Below, piece by piece: positions 2,952 through 35,185 of a DNA stretch of 64,000 nucleotides (position 1 is the stretch's first letter; each line of letters starts with the position of its first letter). Under the pieces are notes generated by a model. That model was not told the origin of the DNA, made no database searches, and saw only the letters and a program-made list of their open reading frames with translations. This DNA is from a virus. The position numbers and the translations under genes are program-made. The stretch is taken from positions 62,001 through 126,000 of the IMG/VR virus record IMGVR_UViG_3300020188_000808, one strand, 5' to 3'.

Positions 2952-4646
2952 CTAGTTTTGTACTACTATTAATCCATGCATTGCACCATGGAATTGACAA
3001 TTATAATGATATGTTCCTGCCGCAGTAGGTTCCCAAACTACATTTCCTGATGTTGAACCTTGGCCTGTAGCCGCTGGTGAAACAACATTGCCAGTACCTG
3101 TTGAGTTTACTGTCTTAATGTAGAACGGATGTCCTGGAGCATTAACAGCAAATGTAAGTGTATCGCCAACACTAACTGTAACTGTTTGATTATTTCCGGA
3201 AACTGCTCCTAATGCGTCTGTGCCTGATAATACATATGCACCTGACCCGTCATTAGTTGTATTAATTGTATAGCTATCTCCTGGTGTTGTACTTGTGTCG
3301 ACAATAGCTAAGTTAAATGTTGATTCGCCATTATCTAATGAAATTACAAATCCTTCATCGCCTTCTGTTGTTGCATCAGCAGTTGCAGTAAATGTTAATG
3401 AGTCTGTTGTACCAACAACAAAGTTACCTGTTAAAGAAGCTCCTGCTAAATCTGCACTAGTAACACCTGTAATTGTATAAGGTAGTACTGTACCATTGTC
3501 AACATTTGAAGTGCTAAGTGTAATTGTAAATGCGTTTCCTTCGTTAACTGTTGTCTGTGTTGATCCTAAAGTATAACTTGGAATTAAAGGACTTAAACTT
3601 GTGTCGCCAAACGCAACTTCAACTGTTGTAGCAGTACCGTCAATTGACATTACAAAAGTTTCGTCGCCGTCAGTATTTAAATCTTCAGCCGCAGTAAACA
3701 CAATAGATTCTGTAGTTCCTACTTCAAAGTTTCCAGATAGATCAGCGCCGCCTATGTCTGAACTGTCAACGCCAGTAATTGTATATCCAACTAAAGTTCC
3801 TTCTTCAACATTTTCTGCTGTTAGAGTAATTGTAAATGATTCACCTTCGTTAACACTTGCCGCTGTTGATGTAAGTCCGTAACTAACAGATGGTGTTGTA
3901 CTTGTATCTTGAATAACAATACTTGTAGTAGCTTGGTTGTTGTCAAGTTTAATTTGCAGTACTTCTTGTCCTTCTGAAGTTGAATCAACAGTAATTGGAA
4001 AACTAAGAATATCAGTAGTACCAACAATAAATGATCCTGTAAGATTAAATCCGCCTATGTCTGCACTTTGTATTCCTGAAATTGTATAAGGTAATACTGT
4101 ACCTGCAAGTACATTTGATGTAACTAATGTTATTGTAACTGTTTGTCCAAGTTCGCCTGTGTTTGTAGTACTTGGGTTAAGTGTATAAACTGGTGCGTCG
4201 GCCGCTCTGCTTGATCCTAACAATGTTGCTGTAGGTTCGTTTTGTGTCGCATAATAATTTGCTGAATAAATTACTTTTGCACCTTGGATAGCTGTTGAGT
4301 CATCTTGTACTCTTGGATATGCTACTAATTTAAAGAATGAATCTGTAACTTCAACTTCTAATTGTATTAGATCGTTTCCTAAATTACTACGTCCATATAC
4401 AACAATATTTGCTTCACTAGTACTAGCAGTTGCTAAACACTTAAGAACTTCTTTGCGTTCACTGTTTACATCACACGCAACAGTATATTCAACACCGAAA
4501 TAACTTCCTACATACCAGCGATCTAATTCTGTTCCTGATTCTACTAGTGTATAACTTGGACCTGCGTAAGACAAGTTGGTTCCGTTACGAAACTCAATTG
4601 TACTGTTTTGTCCACGTCTAAAATATTTGGTGATATCGAAGCTCAT
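2952..4646 (-). CDS. Virion protein: three tandem Calx-beta-like repeats plus C-terminal cupredoxin-like domain
   Basis: 564 residues. After an N-terminal domain (~1-150) come three repeats of about 100 residues (~154-252, 255-353, 357-455). Each has VNEG..F.ITL, NV..GT..YTITGV, L.GNF.VGTT and GDE.F motifs, the pattern of surface beta-sandwich repeats such as Calx-beta. Residues ~457-564 resemble a plastocyanin-type cupredoxin with a full type-1 copper ligand set: His506 (APGHPFYI), Cys550, His553 and Met556 (YNCQFHGAMHG). A blue-copper site is therefore possible but unproven. Similar YHY/C..H..M domains occur in other marine phage virion proteins, to my knowledge without known function. The promoter motif is at 4671-4679. 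Confidence 0.75.
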   Translation of the reverse strand: MSFDITKYFRRGQNSTIEFRNGTNLSYAGPSYTLVESGTELDRWYVGSYFGVEYTVACDVNSERKEVLKCLATASTSEANIVVYGRSNLGNDLIQLEVEVTDSFFKLVAYPRVQDDSTAIQGAKVIYSANYYATQNEPTATLLGSSRAADAPVYTLNPSTTNTGELGQTVTITLVTSNVLAGTVLPYTISGIQSADIGGFNLTGSFIVGTTDILSFPITVDSTSEGQEVLQIKLDNNQATTSIVIQDTSTTPSVSYGLTSTAASVNEGESFTITLTAENVEEGTLVGYTITGVDSSDIGGADLSGNFEVGTTESIVFTAAEDLNTDGDETFVMSIDGTATTVEVAFGDTSLSPLIPSYTLGSTQTTVNEGNAFTITLSTSNVDNGTVLPYTITGVTSADLAGASLTGNFVVGTTDSLTFTATADATTEGDEGFVISLDNGESTFNLAIVDTSTTPGDSYTINTTNDGSGAYVLSGTDALGAVSGNNQTVTVSVGDTLTFAVNAPGHPFYIKTVNSTGTGNVVSPAATGQGSTSGNVVWEPTAAGTYHYNCQFHGAMHGLIVVQN

Positions 4647-4746: not shown

Positions 4747-6558
4747 CTAATTTTTTAATGTTACTAGCTTTTGATATTCAGGTAGATAAAGATATTCGAT
4801 GTCACTATTAGCAAGTGTACGTACTGCATCATCAAGTGTTTCAACTAAAGGCTCGCCACCTAAATTAAAACTTGTATTAAAGATAATACTAATACCTGTG
4901 CGTTCTTTAAATGCTTTAATTACATCATAGTAGTGTTTATTTTGATCTCTATTAACAGTTTGAATACGACATGTTCCGTCAACATGAATAATACTTGGAA
5001 TCTTATCTGCAATGCCGTCTTGGCAGTTTACAGCATACATCATTGTTGGTGAACTTTTCATTCCACGTAGGTCAAACCATTCATGTACATCTTCTTCTAA
5101 AATAGATCCTGCAAACGGACGAAAGTATTCACGTCTTTTAACTTTGTTTACATAATCTTTACCATTAGGATCTGTTGGATCGTACATAATAGTTCTATTA
5201 CCTAATGCACGTGGTCCGTTTTCTGAACGTCCTTGGAATAATGTAACGATTTTTCTATCTACTAATAATTCTACTGCTTTTGCGTTGTCGCAATCTTCAA
5301 CAGTTGCTTCGTATTTTTCTACTACTTTGTTAATATCATCTTCAGAATAACAGTAAGCCGGTCCTTCATATAATGTTTCTTGTTGTTTTTGAACTTTGTT
5401 ACTTTTAGTTAAACGTCTGTGCATTAACATTGCACCGCCCATGGCTGTACCTGCATCGTTACTTACTGGCTCAACATAGATTTCAATTCCGTCATCTTTT
5501 AATGCTTCTAAATAATGATAGTTAGCAACACAGTTAAGTCCATATCCTCCACTAATAACTACTTTATTTTTTCCTGACATTTGAACTGCTTTACGAATTA
5601 ATTTAACAACTTCTTCTTGGCTTTCAGTTTGAATATTATATGCCATGTTGCGTCTATTTTCTAAATAGGTTACGTCTTGCGTTTCTGGATTGTCGCCGTG
5701 GTCAGTTAAGTAAGGGTGCATATTGTAATTAACATGAGCTCCATTAGGATATGTTGGAACAATAACATGTCTATCTGCTTGTGAAGTTAATGTATCATGT
5801 CTAAAGATTTTTGGTGCAGTATCAGCTTTTCCATATGGAAATAGTCCCATAGTCTTGCCTGCTTCAATAAAACTAAATCCACAGTATTCTGTTACTGCCT
5901 CATATGCTTTAACAATTCCAGCATTTTCTGAAATAACTAACTCATGTGTAGCTTCTTTATCTTCGTCATACATTTCACTTGAAAACTCAGGTATCCAAGC
6001 ACCCATTAAAGGACCGTTAGCACCAATGTGCTTGTATAATGTTTTAAAATTGTCAGGATAATTACAATCGTAAATACTTTCAGTTTCCCAAACAGTAGTA
6101 GGTTGCCCGCCAATATCTAATGTAATAAAAGTTCCTGCACCATCTACAATAAGTGCTACTGCATCTTCAAATCCTGAACGATAAAATGCACAAGCCGCAT
6201 GTAACTTGTGATGAATATTTGACATGTCAATTACTTGTGGATGAGATGTACCAGTGTAAGGTAATCTTTTAATTAATCCTAACTTACGTGCAAGACCTGT
6301 ATAAACATCGTCTCCACTAAAGTCTACTTTACCAGCAGTTTGATCTAAATTTTGTGTATGTGCAACAACTAAAAAATCTAATGTATCAGTGTATTCAAGT
6401 ATTTTAACCATACTTGCATATGGCCCGCCATCATACTTTTGTCTAGTTAATCGTTCTTCTTCAATTGAAAAAACAATTTCACCATCTTTTAATAAACATA
6501 CTCCGCCGTTGTGTCCTCTAGCGATTCCTGCAATCCATACTGGCTTTTTAGTTGGCAT
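4747..6558 (-). CDS. Carbamoyltransferase, NodU/CmcH (TobZ) family
   Basis: 603 residues, full length for the family. These enzymes transfer a carbamoyl group from carbamoyl phosphate, through carbamoyl-adenylate, to a hydroxyl of a sugar or antibiotic. Visible signatures are the N-terminal GIARGHNGGVCLLKDG and SIEEERLTRQK, the metal-binding HHKLH at residues 116-120 followed by AACAFYRSGF, the glycine-rich VISGGYGLN, and the C-terminal GRSENGPRALGNRTI and EYFRPFAGSI. All key motifs look intact. The ribosome site is GAGG, and the gene overlaps the upstream gene by 11 nt. It forms an operon with an SGNH-like and a GT9-like protein, so a glycan substrate (host surface or virion sugar) is likely. 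The substrate cannot be read. Confidence 0.92.
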   Translation of the reverse strand: MPTKKPVWIAGIARGHNGGVCLLKDGEIVFSIEEERLTRQKYDGGPYASMVKILEYTDTLDFLVVAHTQNLDQTAGKVDFSGDDVYTGLARKLGLIKRLPYTGTSHPQVIDMSNIHHKLHAACAFYRSGFEDAVALIVDGAGTFITLDIGGQPTTVWETESIYDCNYPDNFKTLYKHIGANGPLMGAWIPEFSSEMYDEDKEATHELVISENAGIVKAYEAVTEYCGFSFIEAGKTMGLFPYGKADTAPKIFRHDTLTSQADRHVIVPTYPNGAHVNYNMHPYLTDHGDNPETQDVTYLENRRNMAYNIQTESQEEVVKLIRKAVQMSGKNKVVISGGYGLNCVANYHYLEALKDDGIEIYVEPVSNDAGTAMGGAMLMHRRLTKSNKVQKQQETLYEGPAYCYSEDDINKVVEKYEATVEDCDNAKAVELLVDRKIVTLFQGRSENGPRALGNRTIMYDPTDPNGKDYVNKVKRREYFRPFAGSILEEDVHEWFDLRGMKSSPTMMYAVNCQDGIADKIPSIIHVDGTCRIQTVNRDQNKHYYDVIKAFKERTGISIIFNTSFNLGGEPLVETLDDAVRTLANSDIEYLYLPEYQKLVTLKN

Positions 6559-34219: not shown

Positions 34220-34420
34220 CTACTTGACTGATAAGTTTATAGCAGAAGGGCCTTTTGGACCATCCTGTGTTTCAAACTCTACAGTATCGCCTTCATTCAA
34301 CGAGTGTAAGCCTGCGGCTTCTACTGCTGAAATGTGTACGAAGATATCTTTGTCTTCGGTAGCGATAAATCCAAAACCTTTAGTGGCATTGAACCATTTT
34401 ACTTTTCCTTGATTACTCAT
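34220..34420 (-). CDS. Cold-shock domain protein (CspA family)
   Basis: 66 residues, the usual CspA length. It is a single OB-fold with both nucleic-acid motifs: RNP1 KGFGFI (14-19) and RNP2 DIFVHIS (25-31). The remainder also follows the family ([24 protein letters not shown]). Csp proteins melt RNA secondary structure and promote transcription antitermination and translation. In this terminator- and hairpin-rich region a role in phage RNA handling is plausible. Ribosome site AAGGA; a ~105-nt leader follows late motif 34527-34536. Confidence 0.95.
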
Positions 34421-34896: not shown

Positions 34897-34937
34897 TCAC
34901 TTTGTTTACCAAAATATATAAAATGGAATTTTAGTCA

Positions 34938-34965
34938 TAAAAAAGCACTCCGGAGAATGCTTTTT
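34938..34965 (-). terminator. Rho-independent terminator of pqqA
   Basis: Stem AAAAGCA/TGCTTTT extended by CTC/GAG, with a run of T on the minus strand, 24 nt after the pqqA stop. Confidence 0.75.
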
Positions 34966-34988
34966 ATGTTTCAATGTATAAACAAGTA

Positions 34989-35063
34989 TTACTTGTTCAT
35001 TACATACATCGTCACTTCAAATCCAAAACGCATTTCTGTTGCTTGAGGTTTAGTCCATTTCAT
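34989..35063 (-). CDS. pqqA: Phage-encoded PQQ precursor peptide PqqA
   Basis: 24 codons starting at ATG 35063, 7 nt after AGGAG. The peptide begins MKWTKPQATEMRFG and continues FEVTMYVMNK. It matches bacterial PqqA (M.W.KP....(D/E)MR.GFEVTMY..N(R/K)) over its whole length. The conserved Glu16 and Tyr20 in the E-x-x-x-Y spacing are the residues that the radical-SAM enzyme PqqE cross-links (with PqqD) to make pyrroloquinoline quinone. No pqqB-E lies in this window, so the host must supply the pathway. The gene stands alone, between the gp23 terminator and its own terminator. Boosting PQQ-dependent methanol or alcohol dehydrogenases is an inference. Confidence 0.88.
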   Translation of the reverse strand: MKWTKPQATEMRFGFEVTMYVMNK

Positions 35064-35082
35064 AATAATCTCCTAATAATAT

Positions 35083-35095
35083 GTGCAACTTGCAC
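35083..35095. promoter_or_regulatory. Palindrome GTGCAACTTGCAC upstream of pqqA
   Basis: A 13-bp inverted repeat with a single central base, 20 nt upstream of the pqqA ATG and 5 nt downstream of a TTAAATAA motif, so it overlaps the probable transcription start. Operator or leader hairpin. Confidence 0.4.
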
Positions 35096-35099
35096 ACTA

Positions 35100-35107
35100 T
35101 TATTTAA
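35100..35107 (-). promoter_or_regulatory. Late-type motif TTAAATAA of pqqA
   Basis: The same 8-mer precedes the plus-strand gene at 48383. Spacing to the pqqA ribosome site is suitable. Confidence 0.4.
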
Positions 35108-35157
35108 ACATATTACAAAGTAAAAGTCATGCAGATAATCATTAAAAGGTCATAAAA

Positions 35158-35185
35158 AAAGGGCGACAAATAAATGCCGCCCTTT
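35158..35185 (-). terminator. Rho-independent terminator of the head operon
   Basis: 8-bp stem AAAGGGCG/CGCCCTTT with a 12-nt loop followed by seven T on the minus strand, 25 nt after the gp23 stop. Confidence 0.85.

Follow-up and report, generated by a model that had tools for sequence, protein, structure and literature searches.

PQQ is made from the peptide PqqA, in which PqqE links Glu16 to Tyr20 and the remainder of which is discarded. Because one PqqA is spent for each PQQ and the pathway enzymes are reusable, PqqA is the only pathway component that has to be resynthesized for every molecule. Cyanophage psbA exemplifies the phage morons and auxiliary metabolic genes, which are host-derived and are predicted to uphold the energy metabolism of the host; the known phage metabolic genes are mostly enzymes or photosynthesis proteins. 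Methylophilaceae genomes hold 3–12 pqqA genes and typically one set of the other pqq genes (PMC4109929), and in Methylovorus MP688, the availability of PqqA has been reported to be rate-determining (Ge 2015, as cited in PMC11317620). A phage-borne PqqA was described in 2020 in the Lake Baikal T4-like phage population VP_266, for which a Methylophilaceae host was predicted and support of methanol oxidation was proposed (PMC7678222), and a reservoir survey listed pqqA, pqqE, and pqqD among virus-encoded genes (PMC13188868). Three papers on the genomes of isolated OM43 phages (PMC9004378, PMC8024684, and PMC10580990) do not mention pqqA. In the literature searched (outside subscription papers and preprints), we found no report of pqqA in cultured methylophages, of the absence of the enzymes, or of a cassette form.

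The phage pqqA described here resembles Methylophilaceae PqqA (PF08042/TIGR02107) in its length, its E-x-x-x-Y spacing, and its subtype (ATEMRFGFEVTMYVMNK), and the operon and orphan copies of the host can be identical to viral ones. It differs from them in being phage-borne, in standing without pqqB–E, and in having an upstream element not found at the host copies. Like the orphan chromosomal pqqA genes of Methylovorus MP688 and M. extorquens AM1, which are thought to set PqqA dosage, it is a single unit apart from pqqB–E, but it is viral rather than chromosomal. Like the cyanophage psbA type of moron, it is host-derived, has its own control signals, and is variably present in a fixed slot, whereas it supplies a consumed peptide substrate instead of an enzyme or photosystem protein. 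It shares with VP_266 the predicted Methylophilaceae host and the same metabolic idea; however, VP_266 has one annotated gene together with a phage methanol dehydrogenase, whereas here there is no dehydrogenase and the lone gene recurs across many phage types. PqqA in one Lake Baikal phage, with the same idea, is therefore already known, and the breadth, the substrate-only pattern, and the cassette are new. The gene is a member of the PqqA family and has the behavior of a moron or auxiliary metabolic gene.

The window, that is, the whole 64-kb stretch analyzed, comprises bases 62001–126000 of a 267,783-bp virus record (Table 1). The original prediction of a 24-codon gene had the correct coordinates; the ORF runs on the minus strand (35063..34989) and encodes MKWTKPQATEMRFGFEVTMYVMNK in 24 codons plus TAA, and translation of the plus strand revealed no gene there. 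The peptide scored 43.8 bits against Pfam PF08042 (cut-off 21.1; 19/19 profile positions) and 39.1 bits against the NCBIfam equivalog TIGR02107 (cut-off 20; 21/21 positions), exceeding both curated cut-offs, and the predicted full-length match was thereby borne out. Its shape also agreed with that of PqqA (expected length, about 23–24 aa), since both Glu16 and Tyr20, spaced E-x-x-x-Y as predicted, were present in the translation. At the sequence level, these results confirm the ORF as a true pqqA. PHROGs contained no family for the 24-aa peptide, and no solved structure matched it.

Table 1. Features of the pqqA locus and of other regions of the window (positions are those of the window)
Feature	Position	Strand	Evidence or remark
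pqqA, 24-aa PQQ precursor peptide	34989..35063 (TAA included)	minus	PF08042, E 2.3e-11; TIGR02107, E 4.4e-10; translation
Shine-Dalgarno AGGAG	35070..35074	minus	sequence; 6 nt ahead of ATG
Promoter-like element ATGACT-N17-TTAAAT (putative)	35102..35130	minus	conservation in related phages' pqqA cassettes
Intrinsic terminator of pqqA	34937..34967	minus	hairpin and U-run, -14.7 kcal/mol, z -4.05
Terminator of capsid gene	35158..35185	minus	scan; fold -22 kcal/mol with neighboring bases, z -5.5
pqqA cassette, 215 bp, present/absent unit edged by TTTTTTATGAC repeats	34945..35159	minus	alignment with empty site of L313
Major capsid protein gene, 389 aa	35211..36380	minus	tblastn to annotated jumbo-phage capsid proteins, best 70.7%
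manA RNA motif RF01745	34649-34854	minus	50.3 bits, E 8e-12; gathering score 55.2
Cold-shock protein	34220-34420	minus	PF00313, 1.2e-24
freshwater-2 RNA motif RF02980	31228-31301	minus	above gathering score
Three related Gly/Cys-rich proteins, 246-268 aa	9827-12891	minus	many GGCCC runs
NodU-type carbamoyltransferase among tail genes	4747-6558	minus	PF16861, 1.2e-57
Tail-region protein	2952-4646	minus	C terminus HPFYI...YHYNCQFHGAMHG, cupredoxin-like (copper-binding); Pfam match weak, 6e-4

The strong ribosome site and the separate terminator anticipated for the gene were both found, and an SD-like motif preceded all 158 viral pqqA genes with sufficient upstream sequence among the matches listed. 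The promoter region fared less well. A promoter-like element is conserved among the phages and resembles a sigma-70 promoter, and its TGTTTAAATAATA part occurs only once in the 267,783-bp record, but its score did not reach the sigma-70 scan threshold, and the pqqA promoter is therefore a putative one that rests on conservation. A search upstream of host pqqA genes did not recover the element, and derivation of the whole cassette, promoter-like element included, from the host was set aside on this ground.

The absence of pqqB–E, predicted for the window, extended to the whole 267,783-bp record, in which pqqB, pqqC, pqqD, and pqqE were not detected by tblastn (to E 0.01); no PQQ-dependent dehydrogenase domain (PQQ_2) was present in the record either. 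PqqB–E were found in none of 160 viral loci (among the matches listed; tblastn to E 0.01). When 50 viral records were searched whole, every one had PqqA, in one copy each except for one record with copies at both ends, and none had PqqE above the cut-off. A methanol dehydrogenase occurred in 1 of these 50 pqqA-bearing records (G021/L045), and it was set aside as a phage gene because the record is probably bacterial (CHASE2, guanylate cyclase). Among the host pqqA genes retrieved, by contrast, 28 adjoin pqqB, and most of the others are orphans.

With regard to the host, the subtype TEMRFGFEVTMY was searched in 11.3 million genome contigs, and the matches listed came almost entirely from Methylophilaceae or their order. 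Ten such genomes hold 1–12 pqqA genes, and nine of the ten have PqqE above the cut-off; these genomes represent the likely host family, and the phage itself encodes none of the pathway enzymes. The peptide subtype, together with the isolated methylophages in which this gene also occurs, points to a methylotroph of the family Methylophilaceae as the most likely host of this jumbo phage. The methylotroph-like host originally predicted is thus well supported, although not proven for this phage.

These observations led us to propose that the phage supplements a host pathway with the substrate that the pathway consumes, so that PQQ stays available to methanol dehydrogenase, a reading to which we assign a probability of about 0.8. 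Carried as a self-contained cargo unit, pqqA would yield a peptide that enters the infected methylotroph's own PqqD/PqqE–PqqB–PqqC pathway. Phage takeover of transcription and the loss of host DNA would exhaust fresh PqqA before the enzymes, and the phage copy, multiplying with the phage genome, would replenish the limiting input for 215 bp of sequence, so that PQQ, and hence methanol dehydrogenase and the energy supply, would be sustained until lysis. This proposal supposes transcription during infection and processing by the host PqqE, and the gain for the phage, a metabolic boost, would probably be continued methanol oxidation. Against it stand the lack of a PQQ-dependent dehydrogenase in the phage, the single, bacterial-looking methanol dehydrogenase record among the 50, and the nearest capsid relatives (93–95%), in which the cassette is missing or the contigs are too short.

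It is also possible, although unlikely, that the peptide is made into PQQ but that the phage gains lanthanide handling, defense against oxidative stress, or the activity of another PQQ enzyme rather than methanol energy. The methanol dehydrogenase XoxF4-1 is a lanthanide-type enzyme. Pelagic Methylophilaceae use and rely on XoxF4-1 only (PMC6794327). In M. extorquens, the orphan pqqA genes react to which lanthanide source is supplied, and PqqA has been suggested to take part in lanthanide uptake (PMC11317620). All of these points would suit such a gain. However, methanol oxidation is the core energy route of these hosts, and the simpler reading, that of methanol energy, covers the data; nothing separates the two.

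Selection on viral pqqA was assessed with each half of the gene in turn. Among the matches listed, Glu and Tyr were kept in 120 of 120 viral genes that had been selected on the front half only, with neither residue demanded, in line with the predicted conservation of E-x-x-x-Y. The back half of this set had a pN of 0.054 and a pS of 0.711, giving a dN/dS of about 0.03, a rough value because dS is near saturation, and for the front half, measured on genes selected by their back half, dN/dS was about 0.2. Judged from these substitution patterns, both the cross-linked core (C-terminal half) and the leader (N-terminal half) are held by selection for function, as in an auxiliary metabolic gene. Conservation of both halves is what would be expected of a functional substrate and is evidence against either a decoy or a relic. 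If the peptide were a decoy, tying up PqqD/PqqE and so blocking PQQ synthesis by the host, the carriage of the substrate alone and never of the enzymes would be accounted for, but a decoy need not retain the cross-linked residues that all 120 genes retain; moreover, many viral peptides are identical to host peptides, the commonest of which recur unchanged on viral contigs. We therefore regard a decoy as very improbable.

Comparison with related phages showed that the gene is part of a block that is either present or absent. Exactly the 35159..34945 block is lacking in IMG/VR locus L313, which has a capsid protein 95% identical to the one here, and the adjoining 60 bp are 100% identical. The block contains the promoter-like element, the ribosome site, pqqA, and the terminator, and in the alignment to L313, TTTTTTATGAC lies at both edges within the tails of two terminators. 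The simplest account would be that the cassette was gained or lost, in either direction, by recombination between the terminator tails. Absence of the block from L313, a terminator of its own, and a promoter recognized by conservation only are the features of a moron. As predicted, the cassette directly follows the major capsid gene, which lies 148 nt upstream of pqqA and ends in its own terminator. The ORF was expected to be conserved in related phages, and pqqA was found in the same post-capsid slot in six other phage loci (L261, L096, L352, L360, L391/L116, and L392), with reverse orientation in L392; in L104, it follows a capsid gene that is only 33% identical. In the closest relatives by capsid (93–95%), the cassette was absent as far as the contigs reach, some being too short to tell, indicating that this phage group can do without it.

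The capsid protein itself was most similar by tblastn to those of Sinorhizobium phage Phosso (71%), Pseudomonas phage PA5oct (67%), and Cronobacter phage GAP32 (66%). The phage had been described as marine T4-like; T4 relatedness held, but because its capsid is nearest to this group, it should read jumbo T4-related, and a marine origin is unproven. A host-type gene of the Methylophilaceae subtype is thus present on a 267,783-bp virus record with a T4-like capsid gene, consistent with an auxiliary metabolic gene.

Several other elements were observed in the window and its relatives (Table 1). Just downstream of pqqA, a manA motif precedes the cold-shock protein gene; a similar stretch behind the capsid gene of relative L319 scored 75.4 for this motif, suggesting that the one near pqqA is probably real. 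No cold-shock gene was seen at the corresponding place in L313, and this gene may be another variable unit of that slot. The post-capsid slot of two relatives contains a glutamine riboswitch (RF01739; L315, 5254–5303; L352, 5481–5528). The freshwater-2 motif was also present in L313, L315, and L360. Two of the Gly/Cys-rich proteins were scanned, and no Pfam match was obtained.

To determine the spread of lone pqqA, the 24 residues were searched against 50,697 phage records (tblastn), and 12 records matched. Nine were Methylophilales/Methylophilaceae phage isolates (Venkman, MEP301, MEP401, MEP402, P19250A, and four Melnitz), and one was an environmental phage. Two Acinetobacter "phage" matches under one phage name were judged bacterial, the examined one having a complete pqqABCDE operon. 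The GenBank record of "Acinetobacter phage MD-2021a" (L003, CAKLQF020000010.1), with its bacterial pqqABCDE operon, is apparently chromosomal sequence. All nine methylophage records surfaced by the search, which represent several phage types, carry pqqA; taxonomy names further methylophages, and these, like MEP431-434 and HIM624-A, lay outside the comparison. In none of 10 methylophage or methylophage-like records was pqqA annotated as such, the gene being unannotated or under a hypothetical protein, and in the two records checked, the annotated ORF over pqqA was spurious and on the opposite strand. The gene was missed because it is so short. The pqqA stretch can be the sole DNA in common between such phages.

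IMG/VR was further scanned with two degenerate DNA patterns, each of which gave at least 120 loci and which together gave at least 160 different viral loci. Essentially every match listed was a PqqA, and 60 different peptides were present among the 159 viral genes read (among the matches listed). Some were of other subtypes that still score as PqqA, suggesting that hosts beyond Methylophilaceae are likely too. The representative records carry several kinds of terminase, portal, or capsid genes (SU10-like, T4-like gp23, and classical portal). Random pickup of host DNA, or misfiling of bacterial contigs as viral, without any functional selection in phages, would be easy to imagine because orphan pqqA genes are abundant in host genomes and a few of the records resemble bacterial sequence (L045/G021, with CHASE2, guanylate cyclase, and methanol dehydrogenase). 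However, pqqA was found in isolated phages, it shares records with terminase, portal, or capsid genes or adjoins them, purifying selection is strong, and the slot behind the capsid gene is recurrent, which leaves this explanation hardly credible. A chance ORF resembling PqqA, to which the length of only 24 codons might point, is refuted by the full-length profile matches, by conservation, and by the loose PqqA motif, which occurred once in the 64-kb window and in 0 of 200 random 64-kb sequences with matched dinucleotide composition.

Taken over the phages compared, we consider it somewhat probable that nearly all methylotroph phages carry a lone, overlooked pqqA and that unrelated types of these phages would take only the consumed substrate and never the enzymes because substrate supply fails first on infection. 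What this phage gene provides is the starting peptide of a ribosomally made cofactor. The idea is open to direct testing in cultured pairs, for example Melnitz or Venkman on OM43 strain H5P1. If it is true, lone pqqA would be a simple marker for phages of such methylotroph hosts, and phages would steer methanol oxidation by abundant aquatic methylotrophs.
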